A stretch of 64,000 nucleotides of DNA from Pelolinea submarina. Lineage in GTDB: Bacteria > Chloroflexota > Anaerolineae > Anaerolineales > Anaerolineaceae. Shown piece after piece: positions 34,769 through 47,471 of this stretch (position 1 is its first letter; each line of letters begins with the position of its first letter). Where the stretch lies: positions 2,914,001 to 2,978,000 of the forward strand of contig NZ_AP018437.1 of the NCBI RefSeq assembly GCF_003966975.1, in the 5' to 3' direction. Both the position numbers and the translations under genes were made by a program. The notes under the pieces are model-generated. The model did not search any database and was not told the origin of the DNA. It saw only the letters and a program-made list of their open reading frames with translations.

Positions 34769-34862
34769 GGGGATGGTTGGGTCCCGGTGGGTCCCTCGAT
34801 CTTCAAAATCGGTGGCGGGCTGCTCTGCAGGCCGCGGTGGGTTCGACTCCCATCCATTCCCG
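34769..34862 (+). tRNA. selC: tRNA-Sec, selenocysteine tRNA (UCA anticodon)
   Basis: 94 bases. 8-bp acceptor (GGGGATGG/CCATTCCC), a 6-position D-stem around CGGTG, anticodon stem TCGAT/ATCGG with loop CTTCAAA (anticodon TCA), and a long variable arm of 9 positions (GCGGGCTGC/GCAGGCCGC). The T-arm is GTGGG-TTCGACT-CCCAT, the discriminator is G and CCA is not encoded. The loop and arm lengths match bacterial tRNA-Sec, not tRNA-Ser. It implies that this organism reads UGA as selenocysteine in some genes. selA, selB and selD are not in the window. Confidence 0.93.
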
Positions 34863-34888
34863 CTGGTGCAACGTTTGGGAGAACACTT

Positions 34889-36085
34889 ATGATCACAGAT
34901 CACAACCTGACTGAAATCGACGCCCTTATCGGGCAATTATTTATTATCTCTGAAATCACGTATGGGAATCCGGATAAGGACTACGTTGTGTTCTACCACG
35001 GCAGCCTGAAAAGCAAAGACAGCCAGAGCGATTATGACAAAATCGCCAAAGCGTTGGAACCGTATGCGCTGATGCCCCTGCTGCGTAAAGACGGGGATGC
35101 TGTAAACCTCTACCTTATGCCAACTCCCGACAAGAAAAAACAGCCCAAATCCGTGTTGAACCTGGTATTGTTCATCCTGACCCTGGTTAGCGTACTGGTG
35201 ACCGGTGGGTTGTATGGTTACCAGGGCACTTTGCCACAGGACACCGGCGCGGCATTGCTGGAATTAATCAAGAACGGCTGGCCCTTTGCCGTCACCCTGC
35301 TGGCCATCCTGGGCGCGCACGAATTTGGACATTATTTCGCCGGGCGCAAACACGGCGTGCAGGTCACCCTGCCCTATTTCATTCCGATGCCGCTCAGCCT
35401 GTTCGGCACCATGGGCGCATTTATCAACATGCGCTCAATTCCAAAAGATAAGCGCGCGCTGTTTGACCTGGCTGTCGCCGGACCTCTCAGCGGGTTTGTG
35501 CTCTCCGTTATTGCGCTCATCATCGGCCTGAATTTATCCGATATGAGCCAATTACCCGCCTCTGCCGCAGCCGGTACCGGCCTGCAAATGGAAGGCAATT
35601 CCCTGTTATACCTGCTTCTGAAATACCTGACCTTTGGCAAGCTGCTGCCCGAACCACCCAATATGAACAATCTGGCAATGGCTATTTACTGGGCACGCTA
35701 CTTCTTCACGGGGCAGCCATTTCCCTGGGGTGCCACAGACGTCATGCTGCATCCGGTGGCCTGGGCGGGCTGGGCAGGACTGTTCGTCACCGGCATCAAC
35801 CTGCTGCCGGCGGGACAGTTGGACGGCGGTCACATTTTTTCCACCCTGTTCGGCGAGAAAGTCACACGCGCCCTGTTCCCCTTCCTGATAGCCGGAATGG
35901 TCATCCTGGGATTTTTCTCCAACGTATGGTGGATGTGGGCTGTGCTGCTGTTGTTTTTCGGCCGCTATTATGCCGAACCGCTCGACCAGGTAACCCAACT
36001 GGACAAAAAGCGCAGAATCATAGGATATATCGCCCTGGCGGTCTTCATCCTGACCTTTATTCCGGCCCCCATCACCGTAGCTTAA
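34889..36085 (+). CDS. Site-2-type membrane metalloprotease (M50 family)
   Basis: 398 residues. Zinc-binding HExxH is in ILGAHEFGHYFAGRKHG (about residue 150) and the third ligand motif in NLLPAGQLDGGHIF (about 310). About 6-7 transmembrane helices with a preceding soluble N-terminal domain of about 95 residues. This layout resembles the plant EGY-type and bacterial S2P-like proteases that cut membrane-embedded substrates. ATG 34889 has GGGAGA 7 bases upstream; an earlier in-frame start would run through the tRNA-Sec gene. It overlaps the convergent gene by 4 bases (TTAA). Confidence 0.92.
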   Translation: MITDHNLTEIDALIGQLFIISEITYGNPDKDYVVFYHGSLKSKDSQSDYDKIAKALEPYALMPLLRKDGDAVNLYLMPTPDKKKQPKSVLNLVLFILTLVSVLVTGGLYGYQGTLPQDTGAALLELIKNGWPFAVTLLAILGAHEFGHYFAGRKHGVQVTLPYFIPMPLSLFGTMGAFINMRSIPKDKRALFDLAVAGPLSGFVLSVIALIIGLNLSDMSQLPASAAAGTGLQMEGNSLLYLLLKYLTFGKLLPEPPNMNNLAMAIYWARYFFTGQPFPWGATDVMLHPVAWAGWAGLFVTGINLLPAGQLDGGHIFSTLFGEKVTRALFPFLIAGMVILGFFSNVWWMWAVLLLFFGRYYAEPLDQVTQLDKKRRIIGYIALAVFILTFIPAPITVA

Positions 36086-37209
36086 TCATTTGCCGCGCAT
36101 GAATTTAGCGTAGCGATTTCTCTGCCGTTCAGACAGCGGTAGCTTTTGAGAGCGTCCACAACCAGACAGGAATGCACCGGAAGGACATAGAGCAAATCCC
36201 CTACCTTTAGCCGCTCAAAATCAGCCGGGGCCAGATGCACTACACCATGTTCCTGTGAGAGCGAAATCACCCGGCTGGACGGGTCGCCCGGCTGCCAGCC
36301 ATCATCGGTTGGAAAAGCCGCATACCCATAGAATCCGTGTCCGTCCGCTTCCAGGAACTCTTTCGAGAGATGGATAGAGCCGCCGTAAATCAGCCCTTCG
36401 CCGCGATGCGGGTGCAGCGCCACCAACGGGCAGGCTACTGCCACCGCCACATCCTCCCAGGCACATACGCCCAGGTCGCGCATCATGGCATCGAAGAAAA
36501 GGAAATTGCCCGGGCGGATCTCATCCACCGGGCCGAGGTCGTCGCACAAAGTACATCCGGGCGTATCCCCCGCCGAGACTTCCAGCTTCACACCCAAACG
36601 GCCCTCCAATTCCCCACGCAGCACGTTCATAGCCTGCACACTGCCGGCATACATCCGGCGGATTTCTTCAGGCGAGTGAGCGTGGTAAGTCTGGCCGGCA
36701 TGCGTGAGCAAGCCGCGCAAGCGCAACTGTGGGTACTGCAGGACTGCCTGCGCGAGTGCTAATACTGCGGCGCTGTCTTCCACATCCACCCCGGCGCGGT
36801 GCATACCGCTGTCGATCTTGATCCAGATATCCACCGGGGTCTGCAGCCCAGCGGCCAAACGCTCAACGCTCCATATGGATTCAACCAGTAATCCCAGCCG
36901 CACCCTTGAGGCCAGAGCGCGAATGACATCCATCTCACGCAGGTTGACCGGAAAAGCCACCAGAATATCGGTCCAGCCATGCCCGGTGAAATAGGCAGCC
37001 ATGCTCATGGATGAGACGGTAATGGCCGATATACCTTCCTCACGGAACCATTCACCGATCTCAGCGGATTGGTGCGTTTTAAAATGCGGACGGAAACGGA
37101 TCTGCTGCGCGGCAGCTTTGGCAGCCATGCGCTTCAAATTGCGGCGTGCCCGGGTTTCGTTCAATACCAGTGTGGGTTTTTGTATAGAATCAAGGAAATC
37201 TGCTATCAT
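36082..37209 (-). CDS. D-threonine aldolase/D-serine dehydratase-like PLP enzyme (alanine racemase N-terminal fold)
   Basis: 375 residues. Fold-type III PLP enzyme: PLP lysine in RFRPHFKTHQ (about 43-52), then TVSSMSMAAYF, IKIDSGMHRAGVD and a C-terminal beta-barrel with VLPVHSCLVVD (His-x-Cys metal site of DSD1-type D-serine dehydratases). It probably eliminates or cleaves a D-hydroxy amino acid. ATG 37209 has AAGGA upstream; ATG 37224 lacks one. It shares a divergent promoter region with the PolX N-terminal gene. Confidence 0.88.
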   Translation of the reverse strand: MIADFLDSIQKPTLVLNETRARRNLKRMAAKAAAQQIRFRPHFKTHQSAEIGEWFREEGISAITVSSMSMAAYFTGHGWTDILVAFPVNLREMDVIRALASRVRLGLLVESIWSVERLAAGLQTPVDIWIKIDSGMHRAGVDVEDSAAVLALAQAVLQYPQLRLRGLLTHAGQTYHAHSPEEIRRMYAGSVQAMNVLRGELEGRLGVKLEVSAGDTPGCTLCDDLGPVDEIRPGNFLFFDAMMRDLGVCAWEDVAVAVACPLVALHPHRGEGLIYGGSIHLSKEFLEADGHGFYGYAAFPTDDGWQPGDPSSRVISLSQEHGVVHLAPADFERLKVGDLLYVLPVHSCLVVDALKSYRCLNGREIATLNSCAAND

Positions 37210-37239
37210 GGTGTTCCTTTTCATGGGGAATCAGAAAAA

Positions 37240-37248
37240 AGTATAATA
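37240..37248. promoter_or_regulatory. Overlapping divergent -10 boxes
   Basis: GTATAATAC is a palindrome. On the + strand TATAAT (37242-37247) places the start exactly on ATG 37254. On the - strand TATTAT or TATACT, in the same bases, serves the gene at 37209. One symmetric core thus appears to fire both ways. Confidence 0.6.
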
Positions 37249-37253
37249 CGGAC

Positions 37254-37721
37254 ATGGACAATCTGGAAATTGCCGCTATCTTTAAACGCATCGCAATTTT
37301 AGCCGAGATCAAAGGGGAAGACCGCTTCAAGGTGTCCGCTTACGAGCGGGCTGCCGACAGCATCGCGGTCCTGACGGAAGACCTGGGCCAGTTGGATGAA
37401 AAAGAACTGGTCGCCCTGCCGGGCATTGGCAAGGCCATCGCCGCCAAGATCCACGAACTGACCAGCACCGGTAAACTCGAATTTCTGGAAAAATTGGAAG
37501 CCGAAATCCCGGCCGGGTTGATAGATTTGATTGCCATTCCCGACGTGGGGCCGCGCAAAGCGGCGCTATTCTGGAAAGAGCTGGGCATCACCAGCGTGGC
37601 CGAATTGGAGCAAGCCGCGCGCGAAGGCAAGCTGCGGGCTCTGCCCGGATTGGGCGAGAAATCCGAAGCGCGCATCCTGATGGGCATTGAAACCTTGAAG
37701 GGTTCTGGGAAGGCGCACTAA
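37254..37721 (+). CDS. N-terminal part of a DNA polymerase X (8-kDa and fingers HhH domains), separate gene
   Basis: 155 residues, equal to the first third of a bacterial PolX. DNA polymerase beta-like 8-kDa domain: NLEIAAIFKRIAILAEIKGE, YERAADSI, then HhH LPGIGKAIAAKIHEL. A second HhH unit IPDVGPRKAALFWKELGI and the LPGLGEKSEARIL stretch correspond to the fingers. It stops before the palm. The rest of PolX (palm remnant, thumb, PHP) is found as a separate gene at 41324-42625, same strand; 155 + 433 residues add up to a normal PolX. Alone it would bind gapped DNA without catalysis. No ribosome-binding site; transcription start falls on the ATG. Confidence 0.85.
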   Translation: MDNLEIAAIFKRIAILAEIKGEDRFKVSAYERAADSIAVLTEDLGQLDEKELVALPGIGKAIAAKIHELTSTGKLEFLEKLEAEIPAGLIDLIAIPDVGPRKAALFWKELGITSVAELEQAAREGKLRALPGLGEKSEARILMGIETLKGSGKAH

Positions 37722-37869
37722 TCCTTCGCTGCTTACCATTTATGTGAAATAGACACAGATTCCAAATTACCGACTGTGTCAGAACATGCTACAATAGGGC
37801 GAATTTTTCCCGGAAAATTTATACGACGAACGCGCCTTAGTATGGCTTTACTGTACACTCAAAATCCCT

Positions 37870-38901
37870 ATGATAAAAAATGCTGATATTCTCTTCAATA
37901 AAAAAAGGAATTTGCGAATCAGCCTGGCCCTGCTGGCTTTATTGGCTGTGTTTGGCTTGTGGTACCAACGTGATGCGCTGGCGGGCAATTTATCCAATTT
38001 TGCAACCGTGTTTTTGGGTATCTTCATAGAAGCCCTGCCCTTCTTATTACTGGGTACGCTGGCTTCCGGTATTGTGGAAGTCTTTCTCAATCCAGGCGTT
38101 TTTGACCGCTTGAAGGGCAGCTCACCACTATTGAGCGCCGCAGCCGGCAGCCTGATGGGGTTGGTTTTTCCAGTGTGCGAATGCGGCGTTGTACCTTTGG
38201 TGCGCCGGCTCTATAAAAAGGGACTGCCCATATCCAGCGGCATTGCCTTCCTGCTGGCGGCGCCGGTCATCAACCCGGTCGTAATCGCCAGCACAGCCTC
38301 GGCTTTCGGGCTTGGGCAAATGGTAGCCATGCGCATCGGTTTCACTTTTCTGATTGCTTCCCTGACCGGATTGGTCTTCACCACCATTCAGGACCCGTCC
38401 GAAGTCCTGCAAAACGGCGGCGAGGTTTTCTGCTCCGTTGAAGCACACGATCATGAGCATGGAGAAGCAGGCTATAAAAACCTGCCTTTCTTTTCGAAAA
38501 TCCAGCGTATCCTATTGATCGCCATGGATGAATTGTTCGAAATGGGACGCTATCTGATTATGGGTTCGCTGCTGGCGGCCGCCATGCAGACCTTTATCCC
38601 CCAATCTTTCCTGCTGCAAGTCGGCGGCGGCCCGGTGCTTTCAGTGCTGGTGATGATCAGCCTGGCCATTTTATTGTCAGTCTGTTCCACAGTGGATGCC
38701 TTCATCGCGTTGAGCTTCCTGGGCACATTCACCAATGCGTCCGTACTGGCTTTCTTGCTTTACGGCCCAATGGTGGATATCAAGAGCATCATGATGTTCA
38801 CGCATGTGTTCAAGCGCAAACCAGTCATATATCTGGTGATTCTGCCTTTGGTATTGGTTATCCTGATTACTGTTTCACTGAATTATTTTTGGGTGCTATA
38901 A
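37870..38901 (+). CDS. Permease of the DUF318/UPF0718 family
   Basis: 343 residues, about 8-9 transmembrane helices in two repeats. Family motif FPVCECGVVPLVRRL (Cys-Glu-Cys) in the first half, and SVCSTVDAFIAL in the second, are typical of the DUF318 permeases that include ArsP-like organo-arsenical exporters and YcgR. A His/Asp/Glu-rich central loop (EAHDHEHGEAG) could bind metal. The next gene encodes the usual partner TIGR03943 (YcgQ). Substrate unknown, a metal or metalloid being likely. The start lacks a clear Shine-Dalgarno site. Confidence 0.88.
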   Translation: MIKNADILFNKKRNLRISLALLALLAVFGLWYQRDALAGNLSNFATVFLGIFIEALPFLLLGTLASGIVEVFLNPGVFDRLKGSSPLLSAAAGSLMGLVFPVCECGVVPLVRRLYKKGLPISSGIAFLLAAPVINPVVIASTASAFGLGQMVAMRIGFTFLIASLTGLVFTTIQDPSEVLQNGGEVFCSVEAHDHEHGEAGYKNLPFFSKIQRILLIAMDELFEMGRYLIMGSLLAAAMQTFIPQSFLLQVGGGPVLSVLVMISLAILLSVCSTVDAFIALSFLGTFTNASVLAFLLYGPMVDIKSIMMFTHVFKRKPVIYLVILPLVLVILITVSLNYFWVL

Positions 38902-38904
38902 CTC

Positions 38905-39813
38905 ATGGACAAGACTGCCAAAAGACAATACCTGCAATTTCTGATTACCCTTGGATTGGCTGTTTACCTGGCGGATAAATGGGCCAGTGGTAAATTGAGT
39001 TATTACATCAACGCGCGTTTCTTCCCGCTGACCTTGTTCGCGGTCGGCGCCCTATGCCTGATGGCCGCCGCCGGATGGCTGCACCTGGCAGCAAAAGCTG
39101 CCGAAAAACAGGTGGAACATGCGCCTGACAAAAATATCCTAATCTTCCAGGCATTCGGCCTCACAGTTACACCGGTATTGTTAACCCTGTTCCTCCCCAA
39201 AACAATACTGATCCTGGGCGTGTATGTCCTAACAGCCCTGCTGGGTTGGCTGCTGCTCCTGCGATACTTTCATAATTTACCGGGGCGGCCGGCAGCGGAA
39301 GCGCCGCCGCGCAGCGCGCTGTTAATTCTCAGCCTGCCGCTGATCATCGGACTGGCCGCGCCCGAACAACCATTATCCAGCGCATCACTGGACACGCGCG
39401 GAATCAGCCTAAACGCCCCTGTGAGCATCTCCCAGCAATCGACAGATTCCCTGGCGGTCCGGCAAGACGACCGTACCATTCTGGATTGGGTAAAATTATT
39501 CAACTATGAAAGCGATCCATCGGCCTATATCGGAGAGGACGTCAACGTGATTGGATTTGTCTATCACGATCCGCGCCTGCCGCAGGGCGAGTTCATGGTG
39601 AGTCGATTTATCATCACCTGCTGCGTTGCGGACGCATTCGCGGTGGGCATGACGGTAGATTGGCCGCAAGATGTAAATTTTGAAGATAATACCTGGATCA
39701 ACGTGCAGGGCACGCTGGATGTTATGCAAATCGGTTCGCAGACCGTTCCTATGGTCCACGCAGCCTCCATCCAGCCTGTTTCCGCACCGGAGCAACCATA
39801 CTTATACCCATGA
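38905..39813 (+). CDS. TIGR03943 family permease partner protein (YcgQ-like)
   Basis: 302 residues. Three to four hydrophobic helices in the first half (LITLGLAVYLA, FPLTLFAVGALCLMAAAG, LLGWLLLLRYF), then a soluble outer domain with FMVSRFIITCCVADAFAVGMTV and INVQGTLDVMQ, the C-terminal block of TIGR03943. These proteins are encoded beside DUF318 permeases and are believed to work with them. It starts 3 bases after the permease and its stop overlaps the next ATG (ATGA). Confidence 0.9.
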   Translation: MDKTAKRQYLQFLITLGLAVYLADKWASGKLSYYINARFFPLTLFAVGALCLMAAAGWLHLAAKAAEKQVEHAPDKNILIFQAFGLTVTPVLLTLFLPKTILILGVYVLTALLGWLLLLRYFHNLPGRPAAEAPPRSALLILSLPLIIGLAAPEQPLSSASLDTRGISLNAPVSISQQSTDSLAVRQDDRTILDWVKLFNYESDPSAYIGEDVNVIGFVYHDPRLPQGEFMVSRFIITCCVADAFAVGMTVDWPQDVNFEDNTWINVQGTLDVMQIGSQTVPMVHAASIQPVSAPEQPYLYP

Positions 39814-41177
39814 AAAAATTCGACCGTACCGTATTATTCGTCATCCTGGCCAGCGCTGTCTTATTGGCAGTCGTGATTATATTCGGCAGCCTGCTGCCGG
39901 TTCGAGTAAGCCTGGACCAGCCCCAAGAGCAGCCCATTAGCCCGCTGGGCGGGATAGCCTTTACATTCTCGCGGCCGGTTAACTCGACCGAAGCAAGCGC
40001 TTTATGGCAGACCGATCCCCAAATTCCCGGCTGGTGGCAGTGGCAGGACGAACGCCACGCCATTTGGCATGCCAATACGCCCCTGTCCGTTGGGGAAAAC
40101 ATAACCCTGACTTTCCTGAGTGGAACGGCAGGGAAAAACGGCGAACGCATTAAGGAAGCGCAGAGCTGGACTTTGACTGTACGGCAACCGCGCATTCTGA
40201 CGCTTAAATATATTCAGGAAGACGGGCAGGAACTATTTTCACTGGGATTGGAAGAAAACAGCCCGCTGCAGCAGATTACCAACAGCGACGGCCGTATCCT
40301 GAACTATGCTGCTTCTCCGAATGGGGAACAAATCATATTTTCCGCCCGCAATGACAACTTCGGGGCGGACTTATGGATCGTCAACCGGGACGGTTCCGAA
40401 CAGCACATGCTGCTGGAATGCGGCAGCGACCGCTGCGGCGCGGCAGCCTGGTCGCCGGTCTCCCGTGAGGTGGCTTACACACGCGAGGCCGCTGGTTTAA
40501 CCCCGGAAGGCGCCAAGGGAGCGCCGCGTATATGGATGTTGAACCTGGACAGCCTGGAAACCGCACCGCTATTCGAGGATGACCAAAAAATCGGTTACGG
40601 GCCAAAATGGAGCCCGAACGGCCAATGGCTTTCCATTTGGGACGGGGCGAGTGGCGGCGTGACCTTGGTCAACCGTAAAAGCGGCGAAACCTTCCTGTTG
40701 GAATCCTCCAGCGGCGACACCGGCTGCTGGTCGCCCGACAGCAAATCGCTGTACTATGCCAACCTGATCATCGGAGAATCCTCATTCCACAATGTCGTTC
40801 TGCGGGCAGATATCGAAAAGAGCACAATCGAAACCGTATTGGGCGGCAACCTTGAAGGAGAGGGGATGAGTTACGACAACCCGGAATGCCACCCGCTCCA
40901 AAATGTTGTGGCGGCATCCATTCAACCCAACACAAAAATTCCCGGAAAACTTCTGACCATCTACAATATGGATACACAGGAAGAGACACCAGTCATGAAC
41001 GACATGACCAAGTTCGGCAGCCATTATTCCTGGAATCCTGGCGGCGAATACTTCCTGTTCCAGATGAGCATTGTCAGCCACAAAGAAGAAGATTACGAAA
41101 TCTGGGTGCGGGATATTGCCGGCGGTCAAAATCGTTTGTTACTGAGCGGCGGCCGCACACCCAGTTGGCTGCCCTGA
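39810..41177 (+). CDS. Membrane-anchored beta-propeller (TolB/PD40-like) with N-terminal Ig-like domain
   Basis: 455 residues. One hydrophobic segment at 8-28 anchors it; residues about 35-125 form an Ig-like (Big_5-type) domain (ISPLGGIAFTFSRPV, LTFLSGTAGKNGERI). From about 130 to the end come PD40/WD40-like repeats with S-P-N-G-x-x-I, W-S-P-x-S-R-E, W-S-P-N-G-Q-W and W-S-P-D-S-K-S motifs. The propeller would face outside. It is translationally coupled to the permease pair through a 4-base overlap and may sense or bind their substrate, though this is only inferred. Confidence 0.85.
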   Translation: MKKFDRTVLFVILASAVLLAVVIIFGSLLPVRVSLDQPQEQPISPLGGIAFTFSRPVNSTEASALWQTDPQIPGWWQWQDERHAIWHANTPLSVGENITLTFLSGTAGKNGERIKEAQSWTLTVRQPRILTLKYIQEDGQELFSLGLEENSPLQQITNSDGRILNYAASPNGEQIIFSARNDNFGADLWIVNRDGSEQHMLLECGSDRCGAAAWSPVSREVAYTREAAGLTPEGAKGAPRIWMLNLDSLETAPLFEDDQKIGYGPKWSPNGQWLSIWDGASGGVTLVNRKSGETFLLESSSGDTGCWSPDSKSLYYANLIIGESSFHNVVLRADIEKSTIETVLGGNLEGEGMSYDNPECHPLQNVVAASIQPNTKIPGKLLTIYNMDTQEETPVMNDMTKFGSHYSWNPGGEYFLFQMSIVSHKEEDYEIWVRDIAGGQNRLLLSGGRTPSWLP

Positions 41178-41323
41178 TATGTGATCTTGAGCGAATCCGT
41201 CCACCGGATTGCCTTCAAAAAAACCTGTTTTTACAATTACCTTTACAAATTCTTAAGAAGCGATTAACCTATTCGACTTATTGGCAATTAAAATACCTAC
41301 ACACTCAGACAGGAGTGTTTTTT

Positions 41324-42625
41324 ATGACGGTTCCAGACTTAAGTAATTACGAATTTGAAATTTTCAAAAAATTCAGCAGCCACGAAGCAATGCCGTTGGC
41401 TGAGCAGTGGTTGAACCGATTGATCGGACTGCCCGAAATTCGCTATGGAGCAGTAACCGGGGAATTACGCCGCGGTAAATATTCCATTGAACACATCGAT
41501 ATTGTGCTGGCCGCAGACAATTTGGAAGAAGCGCAAACGAGTATCAAAGACGCCATCTACCCTACTTTTGTGCAGGAAGAGAACGCCACTCACCTCAGTC
41601 TGCTGCTGCACTCCGGCATCAAACTGGTTGTATGGCTGGCAGAGCCAAAAGACTATATCGGGCAGCTGCTGCGAACCACCGGTTCAGATAACCATCTTGC
41701 CAGGCTTTCACAGGCAGCCCTGAAAAAGGGTTACCAATTGTTTGAAAGCAACGAAAATACCAGCATTTTCCTGCAAAAAGTTGAGAAGGAAGAGGAAATT
41801 TACCGGAAATTGAACCTGCCCTGGATCCCTCCGGAGCTGCGTGAAAGCGGCGACGAAGTGGACTTTCCGGAAAGATATCACCTCAATGAATTGGTAAGTC
41901 CTGCGGATATCCAGTCCGATTTGCACGTGCACTCGACCTGGAGTGACGGCAAGAACAGCATCGCGGAAATGGCCGAAGCCGGCATCCAGCGCGGTCTCTC
42001 ATTTATTTCCATTTGCGATCATTCGCCTTTCCTGCTCTCCAAGTATCAAGACGCATCCTATTTCTACGAGCAGGCCGAAGAAATTACCCGGGTAAACCAA
42101 GATCTGGCCGGTCAATTTACCGTGCTGAGAGGCGTGGAAGTGGACATCATGCCCGACGGCACGCTGGACCTGCCGGTTGAACTGCTTGAAAAAATGGACC
42201 TGGTTGTGGCTTCCATGCACGTACAACTTGACCAGCCCAGGGAAATCGCCACGGCGCGCCTGATTCGCGCGATTGAAAACCCTTACGTGAATATTATCGG
42301 CCACCCCGGCGGGCGTATTTACCCCATGCTGGATGTGATCGATTTGGATTGGGAACGCGTTTACCGCGCAGCCTCTTTCAACCAGGTAGCGCTGGAAATC
42401 AATTCGCATAAATCGCACCCCATTTTTGACGATAAAAAGGCGCGTGCGGCCGCAGATATGGGCGTGTATATCGCGCTCAACAGTGACTCGCATAATTCGG
42501 GGATGATGGCTAATTCGCGCTTCGGTATTGCCCTGGCACGCCGTGCGGATTTAAAATCCGACCAGGTGATCAACACCTGGTCCATCGGTCATTTGAAATT
42601 GTGGCTGCACCAAAAAAGGGCCTAA
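41324..42625 (+). CDS. C-terminal part of DNA polymerase X: degenerate palm/thumb plus PHP domain, separate gene
   Basis: 433 residues from ATG 41324 (AGGAG 8 bases before). Residues about 1-150 match PolX palm and thumb: AVTGELRRGKYSIEHIDIVL equals the family GSLRRG..GDIDI, but the first catalytic Asp is His57 and the third (family VDLR) is Val in KLVVWL; only Asp59 remains. TTGSDNHLARL corresponds to TGS..HN. From about 195 a complete PHP domain: SDLHVHSTWSDG, ICDHSP, RGVEVDI, ASMHV, IGHPGGR, and LNSDSHN. Polymerase activity is therefore unlikely; PHP exonuclease or AP-endonuclease activity is plausible. Partner N-terminal gene at 37254. Stop overlaps the convergent gene (CTAA). Confidence 0.85.
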   Translation: MTVPDLSNYEFEIFKKFSSHEAMPLAEQWLNRLIGLPEIRYGAVTGELRRGKYSIEHIDIVLAADNLEEAQTSIKDAIYPTFVQEENATHLSLLLHSGIKLVVWLAEPKDYIGQLLRTTGSDNHLARLSQAALKKGYQLFESNENTSIFLQKVEKEEEIYRKLNLPWIPPELRESGDEVDFPERYHLNELVSPADIQSDLHVHSTWSDGKNSIAEMAEAGIQRGLSFISICDHSPFLLSKYQDASYFYEQAEEITRVNQDLAGQFTVLRGVEVDIMPDGTLDLPVELLEKMDLVVASMHVQLDQPREIATARLIRAIENPYVNIIGHPGGRIYPMLDVIDLDWERVYRAASFNQVALEINSHKSHPIFDDKKARAAADMGVYIALNSDSHNSGMMANSRFGIALARRADLKSDQVINTWSIGHLKLWLHQKRA

Positions 42626-45018
42626 TTCAGCGGCGCAATATATAACTGGTTATCGTAAGCCAGGAATACTTCCATATCCGAAGAAATACCGAACCCGGTG
42701 GGAGCCTTATCCGGCAAAGGATAATTCCGGTTGGCTTGCGGTCTCCAAACTTTTTCCAAATTCAATTGGAAGCTGAACTGGTCAATTGATTTATTCGCGC
42801 TATCCAAAATATAGATGGCGGCATTCGGCATAACTGTTTGTTGGAGCATTTCAAAGCGTGAATCCAAGAAAATCCATGGTTTCTTTTCACGCCCCGCGCG
42901 ATTATCACTATAGGCAGCCGGATCCTGGCACTCTGTCAGTTTGACATCCTTCAGCGCGCTGTACTGGCACAAGGTCATATGCCCGTCCGCGTGCAGTACG
43001 TATAAATCCTCTTCATTGACTGTCAGGTCGATAGCCCCGCCGAAATCAGGTACATCCTCATCGAGGAATTTGATGGGACTTTCGGAGAAGATAATACCGC
43101 TGGCTTCAGGATCTTGAGGATTCTGCCCTTCGAACATCCAGATGGCATCCTGTTCCGCATCCAATACATAGAGGATATTATCGTCCAACGCGGCGCCGAT
43201 GATGCGCGACCAGCCGGTCGCCGGCGCCGAAAGAGTGCGCGAGACAGGCACCTCACCAGTCCGGCAGTAGAGCAGGTTACCGGATTCATCTATCGCCATA
43301 ACGCGGAAATTATCCGAGTTAGCCGGCAAGACCGTGAAATCCACCAGGCGGCTGACCATGGTCAACCCATACAGGCGGGGAGCGCAGTCGAATTCGGTAT
43401 CCAATTCATAGAATCCCTTGGGGTTGAGGGAAATGCGCAGCACGCTGCCGGAAGTTTTGTCTAACAGATACACACCGGAGGAATTGGCTTCGATGTGCGA
43501 GACGACCACACCATCCGGGAAGAATTGCGTCAATGCCGGACGAAAATCCAGGCGGCCGGCTAAATCGAGATTATCCAGATTGGACTGGGACTGTTCAAAA
43601 AGAGCCTGTGATTCCTGAGTTACGTCGTACTCCTGCGCCTGAGTGACCAAATCCAAAGCCTGGGCCCAATAAGTCCGTTGTTCGCCGACATCCTCGCTGA
43701 CGCGGGCGATATTGACAGCCTGCTGGGCTTCCGTCATCAATCTCTGGTGTTCCTGAGAGCGGCCGCTTTGGTTATAAACCGTGAGCGAAGCCAGGGTAAG
43801 CACTAATGGAATGGCAACCGCTAGAATTACCATCAGCAGCGGCGGGGAGCCGGGGCTGAGCGGGAGTTGGGAAGGTTGGGCAGTCCGGAAACGTCCGGTC
43901 AGGCGCTGCGAGCGGTTCCGGATATTGGCATTCCAGGCTTTCATTTTCATCCATGTTTTGGCCAGGGCAACGGTAAAAGCCCCATACCCATTTGCAAGCG
44001 GCGGTGCGGTGCGAGCTGCGGAACTTCCGGCTGCCGGTCTTTCCGTTTCCCCGGCAATAACCGTCACGGATTCATCCTGATCACCGGTCATGAAATCCAT
44101 TTCGGGTTCAGCGAGCTCTTCTGCTTGCGGATAGCGGGGTTGAAAATCGTCCGTTTCCGAAGAAAAATCATCCGCATCGGGGGTTTCGTCAAGCTGCTCA
44201 CCGGCAGGCATATAAAACGGTTGAGAAGCTGGTTCTTCCGACTGCGGTTCAGTAAGGGTCGGCAAAGTCTCTTCCGGCCAGGCACTTCCTGCATTTTCGG
44301 CTTCCGCGGGAGATTGTGCCGGGCTTTCCTCCCAATCACCCGCCTCGACCTGGCCGCGTCCCTCCGCAAACCGGATCAACAAGGTTTCCAATGACGCGCT
44401 GACCTGGTTCAATAAGCGGCGCTTGACCTGAGGCATGCTCAGGCCGCAGCTGCCGGCCAGGTTGGACACCGTCCAGGAAGCCGGAGGCTGTTCGCAGAAG
44501 AGCAGCATATCCCCCGGTTGGGCTTCGGTTTGCGCCAGGCGCACCTGAAGGCGCTTGCTGAGGCCGAGATAGTCGCCGGAATCAGCCGGTTCGGCCAATA
44601 TATCCACCATCGCAGGATTGATAAAAACCGCCTGGGTGCGCCCGACTTGGGCCAGGAACAACCAGTTATTGTGCAGCACCGCCAGGTTGAGCGTGCCCAG
44701 GGCACGCACTCCCTCATAGCCGCGGTCCAAATTGCGGTCGAAAATTTGTTTATTAAGGGTATCCGCCACGGCCTGCATGGCACGGGTGACCGATCCCTGT
44801 ATTTGGAAGAAGGATTCGGCTGCTGCCTGCGTAATTGTTTGAATCTCTTCCGGGTCATAGCGGTGGTCACCGGAAACAGTCAACAGCATTGCCAACAAAT
44901 CACGCTGGCGATGGCGGTGGGCTATCGCCGGTGCCTGCATTACCTGCATACCGGGAATGGCTTCCCCTTCCCTTCCGGCGCGAAAAACCAGTGGATAATA
45001 AATAAAATCTATGCTCAT
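42622..45018 (-). CDS. PP2C-like domain protein with transmembrane helix and extracytoplasmic propeller
   Basis: 798 residues. Residues about 1-230 resemble a degenerate PP2C-type phosphatase: VRALGTLNLAVLHNNWLFLAQVGRTQAVFI keeps the barrel pattern, but the Asp-rich metal sites are mostly missing. Then comes a Glu/Pro/Ser-rich linker (about 240-390), a single transmembrane helix (LLMVILAVAIPLVLTLASL, about 400), a short helical stretch, and a C-terminal region of about 330 residues with propeller-like blades (GVYLLDKTSG, ILYVLDAEQDAIWMFEGQ, DLYVLHADGH, AIYILDSANKSIDQF). It looks like a signalling or assembly protein linking outside and inside; not assigned to a named family. Confidence 0.65.
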   Translation of the reverse strand: MSIDFIYYPLVFRAGREGEAIPGMQVMQAPAIAHRHRQRDLLAMLLTVSGDHRYDPEEIQTITQAAAESFFQIQGSVTRAMQAVADTLNKQIFDRNLDRGYEGVRALGTLNLAVLHNNWLFLAQVGRTQAVFINPAMVDILAEPADSGDYLGLSKRLQVRLAQTEAQPGDMLLFCEQPPASWTVSNLAGSCGLSMPQVKRRLLNQVSASLETLLIRFAEGRGQVEAGDWEESPAQSPAEAENAGSAWPEETLPTLTEPQSEEPASQPFYMPAGEQLDETPDADDFSSETDDFQPRYPQAEELAEPEMDFMTGDQDESVTVIAGETERPAAGSSAARTAPPLANGYGAFTVALAKTWMKMKAWNANIRNRSQRLTGRFRTAQPSQLPLSPGSPPLLMVILAVAIPLVLTLASLTVYNQSGRSQEHQRLMTEAQQAVNIARVSEDVGEQRTYWAQALDLVTQAQEYDVTQESQALFEQSQSNLDNLDLAGRLDFRPALTQFFPDGVVVSHIEANSSGVYLLDKTSGSVLRISLNPKGFYELDTEFDCAPRLYGLTMVSRLVDFTVLPANSDNFRVMAIDESGNLLYCRTGEVPVSRTLSAPATGWSRIIGAALDDNILYVLDAEQDAIWMFEGQNPQDPEASGIIFSESPIKFLDEDVPDFGGAIDLTVNEEDLYVLHADGHMTLCQYSALKDVKLTECQDPAAYSDNRAGREKKPWIFLDSRFEMLQQTVMPNAAIYILDSANKSIDQFSFQLNLEKVWRPQANRNYPLPDKAPTGFGISSDMEVFLAYDNQLYIAPLN

Positions 45019-45131
45019 AATAATATGTCGTTGTATTCAATCTGATTATACATAATGGGCCGAAATCCTGCACCGAATTGGTGCTGGTTATAATACAATC
45101 AAATTAATCATATTTATATAAGGCGGAAGGT

Positions 45132-47471
45132 ATGAGCAGTAATAAAGAATTCTATCTGGGCAAAATTTTCGATCTCAAGAAGGGCGTGTTGACCGATGAC
45201 GTTCTCAGCTACGACCCGCCTGATTTGACCACGCACGCCATCGTGACCGGCATGACCGGTTCCGGAAAAACCGGTTTGTGCATAGGCCTGCTTGAGGAAG
45301 CGGCGCTGCAAGGTATTCCCGCCATCATGGTCGATCCCAAAGGGGATTTGACCAACCTGCTACTGACCTTTCCGGATTTAAAAGCGGAAGATTTCGAACC
45401 CTGGATGGACCCCGCCAGCGCGGCTCGTGAAGACAAGACCACCGCCCAAACCGCGGCCGAGACCGCCGCTATGTGGAAGAAAGGGCTGGCCGATTGGAAC
45501 CTGGGCAGCAAAAACATTCAGGAATTAAAAGATGCGGTAGAACGGAAAATTTACACACCCGGTTCCAGCAGCGGCATTCCGGTCAGCATTCTGGCCTCAT
45601 TCGAAGCGCCGCAGCTCTCCTGGGACGAAAATGAAGAAACCCTGCGCGACAAGATATCCGATACCGTAACCGCTGTTCTGACGCTGATTGGCTTGAAAGA
45701 GATCGATCCGCTGCGTTCGCGGGAACACATCCTGCTCTCCAACATCATTGAATATAACTGGAAGCAAGGCATCTCCCTGGATTTACAGAACCTGATTCTG
45801 CAAACGCAGAATCCTCCGCTGGAAAAACTGGGCGCTTTTGCGATCGATGATTTCTTCCCCAAGAAAGAGCGCGGCGAGCTGGCTATGCTGTTGAACAGCT
45901 TCCTGGCCTCGCCTTCCTTCCAACCCTGGATTGAAGGGCAGCCGCTGGACATTGAAAAGATGCTTTACACGGACGACGGGAAACCGCGCCACAGCGTCTT
46001 TTTCCTGGCACACCTGAACGACAGCGAGCGTATGTTCTTCATCACCTTGTTGTACTCGGCTGTAGATACCTGGATGCGCAAGCAGAGCGGCACGGGCAGC
46101 CTGCGCGCGCTGGTCTATTTTGACGAAATTCACGGCTACCTGCCGCCTGTTGCCAACCCGCCATCCAAGCCGTTGATCATCCGCCTGTTAAAAATGGCGC
46201 GCGCCTTTGGTGTTGGCCTGGTGCTGAGCACGCAAAACCCGGTGGACGTGGATTACAAAGCCCTATCCAACACCGGCACCTGGATGATCGGGCGTTTGCA
46301 AACCGACCAGGACAAACAGCGCCTGCTGGACGGGTTGGAAAGCGCGGCCGGCGGTATTCAGCGCAGCGAATACGACAAACTGATTTCCTCGCTGGGCAAA
46401 CGTGTTTTCCTGTACCACAACGTACACGAGAAAAAACCGGCTATCTTCGGCACACGCTGGGCCATGAGTTATCTGGCCGGGCCGTTGACGCTTACTCAAG
46501 TGCCTGCCTTGAACGCGCTGGCCGGGGCGCAACCCTACGAAGCGGCCGCCAAACCAGCCCAAAAGAGCACGCCAACCGCAACCCCCAGAAGCGCAGAAAG
46601 CGCTGCCGCCGAAAGCGCAGTGGGCAGCGGTGTCCCTCAGTATTTTTTGACCGCGGACGCAGCCGAATTGAAACCCTGCCTGCTGGCCATTGCCGAGGTG
46701 CGTTATCTGTCACGCAGTCCCAGCGTGAATGCCAGCCGTGTGATCAGCGCGCTGGTAGATGACCCGCGCGAAACCGGCCAAAAATGGGAGGATTTCGTCA
46801 GTGAGTTGGGCCAAAAGGATATTTCCAACAGTGCCCCTGCCAAAGCCAAATTGGCCAACTTGCCGGGATTCATGCAGAAATCCAGCTGGTGGTCCACGCA
46901 GGAAAAGGAATTCGAACACTGGATTTTCGAGACCGACACGGTCAGCGTGCGCAGCAGCAAAACGCTGGGCATCAGCGCCGGACCGGAAGTGAGCGATGTG
47001 GAATTCCTGAAGCAGGCGCAGGCCGCCGCAGCCGATAAAGCCCAGGCAGAGATCAAGAAATTAGAAACCAGCAACCGCAGCAAAGAAACTGTGCTGAATG
47101 GGAAAGTTGAGCGAGCGCAGGCCAAAGTGGATAAACTGGAAAAAGAGGCCACCTCGCGCAATATCGACACCGCACTAAAAGTGGGTGAAACCTTATTGAA
47201 ATTCGCCAGCAAGAAGAAATTGACCGGCGTATCCTCCTCCGCCACCAAGTTCCGCATGTCTTCGGACGCCAAAGGGCGGCTGGAGGAAGCCAAGGCCGCG
47301 TTGGAAGATCTACAGGAACAATTGAAAGAGCTCCAGCAGACGCTGGAGGACGAGAAGCAGGCGATTCAGGATAAGTGGCAGGCAGAAGTCGATAACATTG
47401 ATGAGGTCAAACTCACCCCCACCAAGCAGAACATCCGCATCACGCACTTTGGGATTGGCTGGAAAAGTTAG
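45132..47471 (+). CDS. HerA-like/DUF853 ATP-binding protein
   Basis: 779 residues. Walker A in VTGMTGSGKTGLC (about 40) and DPKGDLTNLL are typical of HerA/DUF87 helicase-like ATPases; Walker B is ALVYFDEIHGYLPP (about 330), with later STQNPVDVDYKALSN and the arginine-containing WMIGRLQTDQDK. The last 180 residues form a long charged coiled coil (KAQAEIKKLETSNRSKETV, LEDLQEQLKELQQTLEDEK). The fold drives DNA or protein translocation as a hexamer. No NurA gene is adjacent. GGCGGAAGG precedes ATG. Confidence 0.88.
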   Translation: MSSNKEFYLGKIFDLKKGVLTDDVLSYDPPDLTTHAIVTGMTGSGKTGLCIGLLEEAALQGIPAIMVDPKGDLTNLLLTFPDLKAEDFEPWMDPASAAREDKTTAQTAAETAAMWKKGLADWNLGSKNIQELKDAVERKIYTPGSSSGIPVSILASFEAPQLSWDENEETLRDKISDTVTAVLTLIGLKEIDPLRSREHILLSNIIEYNWKQGISLDLQNLILQTQNPPLEKLGAFAIDDFFPKKERGELAMLLNSFLASPSFQPWIEGQPLDIEKMLYTDDGKPRHSVFFLAHLNDSERMFFITLLYSAVDTWMRKQSGTGSLRALVYFDEIHGYLPPVANPPSKPLIIRLLKMARAFGVGLVLSTQNPVDVDYKALSNTGTWMIGRLQTDQDKQRLLDGLESAAGGIQRSEYDKLISSLGKRVFLYHNVHEKKPAIFGTRWAMSYLAGPLTLTQVPALNALAGAQPYEAAAKPAQKSTPTATPRSAESAAAESAVGSGVPQYFLTADAAELKPCLLAIAEVRYLSRSPSVNASRVISALVDDPRETGQKWEDFVSELGQKDISNSAPAKAKLANLPGFMQKSSWWSTQEKEFEHWIFETDTVSVRSSKTLGISAGPEVSDVEFLKQAQAAAADKAQAEIKKLETSNRSKETVLNGKVERAQAKVDKLEKEATSRNIDTALKVGETLLKFASKKKLTGVSSSATKFRMSSDAKGRLEEAKAALEDLQEQLKELQQTLEDEKQAIQDKWQAEVDNIDEVKLTPTKQNIRITHFGIGWKS

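Follow-up and report, generated by a model that had tools for sequence, protein, structure and literature searches.

A DNA polymerase X with an altered palm site, probably divided by an operon, and its separately maintained genes in an Anaerolineaceae lineage

In noncanonical prokaryotic PolX proteins, catalytic triad and dNTP site are altered while the PHP metal motif is complete, its ligand consensus being HHHEHHEDH; these proteins are single chains of ~573 amino acids and are predicted to be exonucleases and not polymerases (Prostova et al. 2022, PMC9226535). The noncanonical PolX tested in Deinococcus, in which the polymerase site is altered and the PHP domain intact, are Mn-dependent exonucleases that lack polymerase activity (PMC9226535). 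According to a second study, the PHP site is generally better conserved than the polymerase site in PolX1, and PolX-like proteins, which are without the whole polymerase region, have kept the PHP nuclease beyond the loss of the polymerase (Timinskas et al. 2026, PMC12926913; cf. PRK07945).

Here we describe a PolX of Pelolinea submarina that occupies two genes within the window, by which we mean the whole stretch of DNA analysed (64,000 nucleotides):

37254..37721, + strand: N, a stand-alone PolX N-terminal part with an 8-kDa domain and HhH hairpins (155 aa; ORF and profile matches)
41324..42625, + strand: C2, with palm (triad H57/D59/V102, predicted to be inactive), thumb and PHP nuclease domain (433 aa; ORF, profiles and alignment)

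When joined, front and back have the same domains in the same order as canonical PolX (T. thermophilus 3au2, B. subtilis), but the window encodes them as two genes with an altered palm site. With the noncanonical proteins they share the replaced palm aspartates, the altered dNTP site and the complete nine-ligand PHP metal motif, and the same prediction of an exonuclease in place of a polymerase would apply; whereas those proteins carry the 8-kDa, HhH, palm, thumb and PHP domains on one polypeptide, two separate ORFs are found here. C2 likewise resembles PolX-like proteins in that the nuclease has outlived the polymerase, yet it differs from them in keeping palm and thumb, and it scores below the PRK07945/PolX-like cut-off (181.6 against 250 bits). 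Both parts fall below the curated cut-off of 426 bits for the PolX equivalog PRK08609 (NF006375), N with 116 and C2 with 282 bits. Chloroflexota appear neither in the main text of PMC9226535 nor in that of PMC12926913, and stand-alone N proteins, the inverse of PolX-like proteins, do not occur in the latter's passages on PolX. Dead palms are known from other PolX; a front end that stands alone and a division driven by an operon may be new as far as our literature search goes, which found neither described and outside of which most subscription papers lay.

Anatomy of the front and back genes

A first-pass annotation of the same sequence had assigned 37254-37721 to the 8-kDa/HhH part of PolX and 41324-42625 to the region from palm through PHP, and both assignments hold. 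N matches PRK08609 (PolX) at positions 6-148 and Pfam HHH_8 (PF14716; 79.1 bits, gathering cut-off 30), and C2 matches PRK08609 at 153-570 together with DNA_pol_B_thumb and the PHP domain (PF02811; 43.8 bits, gathering cut-off 26.4). Because N aligns to residues 1-156 of T. thermophilus PolX (3au2) and C2 to residues 164-573, the whole PolX is covered by the two together; the division falls in the linker that joins the HhH region to the palm, and the lengths do add up to the 588 aa that had been counted (155 + 433). The two ORFs are 3.6 kb apart, and profile matches confirm the permease, TIGR03943 and propeller genes that had been placed between them. Neither an intact polX nor a further PolX part turned up when the 3.52 Mb single-contig genome was queried with C2, N and an intact relative's PolX. 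The split does recur in a relative: an independent congener (G003) shares the order of N, three-gene cassette and C part, which rules out an assembly break as its cause. Among named genomes, a scan turned up a single distant relative. Neither N nor C2 matches defence-system models, and because no Ku gene is present in the window genome or in nine relatives, the NHEJ link proposed for PolX is unsupported here.

A promoter-like box lies immediately in front of N:

37242..37247, + strand: TATAAT, a -10-like box 6 nt 5' of the N start (sequence; transcript possibly leaderless)

The 20 nt surrounding this box are nearly identical between the window and G003. Lys26 and Lys65 of N are the aligned counterparts of Lys35 and Lys72 in human Pol beta, the only matches among the Pol beta lysines compared; Lys68 has no counterpart. 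N is thus like the 8-kDa and HhH portion of Pol beta and PolX in its HhH hairpins and its Lys72 equivalent (Lys65), but differs in being an independent protein of ~150 aa. Between the window and G003 it is the most conserved product among the region's genes, with 79% identity and a pN/pS of 0.24, ratios in this comparison being rough because synonymous sites are near saturation. N most likely binds gaps or 5'-ends via its 8-kDa and HhH parts, and a lyase activity is possible, though with no Lys68 equivalent.

In C2, the nuclease and polymerase sites have fared differently:

41924..42493, + strand: PHP metal-ligand span of C2, H201 to H390, with nine of nine ligands (alignment, sequence)

In C2, His57, Asp59 and Val102 stand at the positions of the catalytic Asp198, Asp200 and Asp243 of 3au2 (numbered by counting along the alignment); two of the three catalytic aspartates are therefore replaced, just as the first-pass annotation had read them. 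Its description of the PHP metal motifs as complete was also correct: all nine ligands are kept (H201, H203, H233, E272, H299, H327, E358, D388 and H390), and the scored ligand positions are kept as well in the other C2s and in C1, a second back part present in G003. The C2 proteins of the window and G003 are 65% identical overall, with 75% in the PHP domain and 52% in the palm, whereas palm and PHP are conserved about equally between pairs of intact PolX. The triad predicts that C2 is without polymerisation capacity, while ligands, selection and the literature make a retained PHP nuclease most likely. This nuclease may be weak or altered, because R474 and R503 of B. subtilis align with Leu and His in C2; both belong to the DNA-path residues needed for PHP activity in B. 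subtilis (PMC6616362).

The palm had changed before the gene was divided. An Asp-Asp-Gln (DDQ) triad is found in all 12 intact family PolX and in 14 of 15 PolX of the order, with a Trp two positions further along; the steric-gate motif is altered as well. A second search, which overlaps in part with these genes, gave 22 order and family loci, every one of them DDQ. The 23 outgroups, eight genomes from the class but not the order and 15 from the phylum, have Asp-Asp-Asp (DDD). Within the genus, C2 reads HDV in the window and in G003 and SEI in the congener G001, and C1 of G003 reads RDQ. Since all sampled intact family PolX are DDQ, the change of the third Asp to Gln long predates the split, as judged from these sequences. 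The altered palm beside a kept PHP site fits both the noncanonical PolX of PMC9226535 and the tendency of PolX1 in PMC12926913. The earlier proposal of lost polymerisation with a retained PHP site agrees with the triad and the nine ligands, with the correction that the palm was already DDQ before the split. The sole order member with a DDD PolX (G046, L030) falls among the class-level outgroups in the tree, which may reflect transfer or a basal position.

The inserted operon and two copies of the back half

The genes flanking and separating N and C2 can be compared directly with those of relatives:

34889..36085, + strand: M50 peptidase, conserved left neighbour marking the ancestral polX locus (profile match; relatives)
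36082..37224, - strand: alanine-racemase-like/D-Ser dehydratase gene (AlaR), conserved divergent neighbour of polX/N (profile match; relatives)
37870..38901, + strand: ArsP_1 permease, first gene of the relocated operon (profile matches)
38905..39813, + strand: TIGR03943/DUF1980 protein, second gene of the relocated operon (profile matches)
39810..41177, + strand: TolB-like beta-propeller gene, third gene of the relocated operon (profile matches; relatives' gene order)

In G006, a member of the same family, the M50 peptidase and divergent AlaR genes are followed by an intact polX of 597 codons; in the window and G003 they are followed by N, the ArsP-TIGR03943-propeller genes and then the back part. 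The same three genes form an apparent operon between LysM and queG-type genes in G006, G022 and G004. In both the window genome and G003, ~75 bp separate LysM from the queG-type gene, so that the old operon site is empty, and the operon is located exactly at the HhH/palm boundary. The simplest account of this gene order is that the operon moved within this lineage from the LysM-queG site, now closed, into polX (window 37870-41177; L163:2102-4132).

Two further observations concern the neighbourhood. A tRNA-Sec gene (window 34769-34863) overlaps the listed 5' end of the M50 ORF, whose true start is probably near 34889. Window 42622-47471 holds a pair of genes found beside the polX locus across genera: the product of one has 798 aa and weakly matches a beta-propeller, and the other encodes a HerA-like ATPase with faint similarity to the mad8/HerA defence models.

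C2 has a promoter-like element of its own:

41242..41270, + strand: promoter-like element of C2, TTTACA-N17-TAACCT (82-88 nt before C2 in three congeners)

The form TTTACA-N17-TAA(C/G)CT is present in all three C2 species (window, G003 and G001). The window element matches that of G001 at 29/33 positions and that of G003 at 23/33, and none of 200 dinucleotide shuffles is as good; the G001-G003 pair by itself (20/33) is not significant in the shuffle test.

In G003, C1 begins 36 bp behind the propeller gene, at the PolX linker, and because N ends and C1 begins at this same linker without loss or overlap, nothing is missing from N and C1 together. C2 follows C1 and is the one of the two back parts with orthologues in the window and G001. 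A seeming homology in front of C1, from query position 132 onward, proved spurious, as it falls on the end of the propeller gene. C1 keeps the ancestral Gln and the GSIRRW motif, while the C2s form one clade with full support in the tree, carry a lineage-specific N-terminus and share their promoter-like element with G001, which is itself without the operon. Since C1 adjoins the operon and C2 has its own N-terminus and promoter-like element, C2 is probably a diverged paralogue and C1 the true back half; in the window, C2 would then not be the directly severed half, which has probably been lost there. The idea of one gene split in two is therefore right about the separation, but C2 is not simply the other half of N. 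A single split, with C2 as the original back half and C1 of G003 as a later or foreign copy, is unlikely. It draws on the tree, in which C1 joins either the C2s or the neighbouring line of G034, both by long branches that make the join insecure, and in which a clade of C1 and G034 that leaves out C2 is statistically acceptable (p-AU 0.15); the history of C1 and C2 as we read it rests on this long-branch tree and on gene order. The single split is opposed by the position, linker start and ancestral motifs of C1, and by the N-terminus and element that mark C2 in operon-free G001 too. C1, the C2s and the intact PolX of G034 all lack the R474 equivalent and have His for R503, which supports a native origin of both copies.

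Front and back parts kept alone in relatives

A family-wide PolX search of 147 genomes (counts tallied from the result table) returned 28 full-length PolX, and about 100 genomes were without a PolX-type match. Six genomes from two other genera have N alone (~150 aa) at the polX locus: G035 and G531-G534, which are five species of genus g33, and G031. These genes (loci L148-L153, in G533, G035, G532, G534, G531 and G031, respectively) adjoin the AlaR gene and, on contigs that extend far enough, also the KIB-like and HerA genes. The family-wide search found no C part in the six genomes, all drafts; completeness is 92% or more for G533, G532 and G534. The N-only genes of the five g33 species have a pN/pS of 0.20-0.36, close to that of neighbour genes and in line with purifying selection, and their proteins retain the HhH hairpins as well as the counterpart of Pol beta Lys72. 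The N-only genes and window N may go back to a single origin (p-AU 0.31 for one clade). G001, also a draft, has C2 and no N that we could find, and G027 encodes a PHP-only protein of 261 aa (L040:5042-5827) in the neighbourhood where G034 has an intact PolX. With draft assemblies for G001 and the N-only genomes, the other part may have been missed in any single one of them. Apparently truncated genes in G538, G004 and G500, which run off contig ends, and in G456 (139 aa) were left out of the PHP-only and N-only counts. Relatives with only N, C2 or PHP mean that each piece can persist without the other and suggest that each works by itself.

A different division of PolX is seen in G103, G184 and G285 (L113, L111 and L112; family f29 of the same phylum), where a polymerase core with an intact-looking Asp triad has no PHP domain and the PHP gene lies separately, elsewhere.

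These relatives bear on the first-pass suggestion that N and C2 are subunits of one gap-binding PHP nuclease, in which N would provide gap and HhH binding in trans. The suggestion finds no support in the six genomes with N and no C part, in C2 without N in G001 or in the lone PHP domain of G027, nor in C2 being probably a paralogue with its own promoter-like element and not N's direct other half. Both N and C2 are under purifying selection in the window and G003, as two subunits would be, and the isolated PHP domain of B. subtilis loses AP-endonuclease activity more than ten-fold, HhH binding having been proposed to help (PMC6616362); this drop counts toward a need for the front end and against an independent C2. 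On balance we consider a two-subunit enzyme doubtful, although N and C2 may be partners in the window species itself.

Decay in progress, with the family losing polX and N and C2 as leftovers of little or no function, appears improbable to us. It would account for the roughly 100 of 147 family genomes without a PolX-type match, for the faster drift of the C2 palm and thumb relative to PHP, and for G002, which has only a C2 remnant with an internal stop (L037:5951-6211, between the AlaR and KIB-like genes). It does not sit well with N and C2 ORFs that are intact in two species at near-saturated synonymous distance, with the identity and pN/pS of N and the full set of PHP ligands, or with N-only genes conserved across five species of another genus.

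We favour the reading, at a probability of about 0.6, that a dead-palm PolX was divided by an operon and that N and C2 are independently kept repair proteins whose activities are predicted from sequence. The genus ancestor would have had a polX with a defective polymerase site (DDQ), of which the PHP nuclease and the 8-kDa/HhH DNA-binding front end were the useful parts. The resident three-gene operon would have moved from LysM-queG into the HhH/palm boundary, producing N and C1, with the second, diverged back-half copy C2 located downstream under its own promoter-like element; the window species would then have lost C1 and kept N and C2. C2 would most likely act as a Mn-dependent PHP nuclease, as a 3'-5' exonuclease, an AP endonuclease or both, with the dead palm as its carrier. 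N would most likely be an HhH protein in its own right, binding gaps or 5'-phosphate/dRP ends and perhaps acting as a lyase. The two would be kept independently, with no complex required; that N is kept as a functional protein on its own in the window species is a part of this reading that we infer.

The division of a dead-palm PolX into separately maintained modules is well supported. We lean slightly towards the further view that the 8-kDa/HhH front end is an autonomous repair protein (a gap, 5'-phosphate or dRP-end binder or lyase) and represents an undescribed stand-alone family born of a dismantled dead polymerase, with several genera keeping the front end without polymerase and nuclease and others only the nuclease. 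Routine annotation would probably label so small a protein as hypothetical or as an HhH-domain protein. One family thus displays steps in the disassembly of a polymerase, from the loss of a catalytic residue through an operon between domains to DNA-binding and nuclease modules that survive independently, and which part of a bacterial PolX cells actually need becomes testable.
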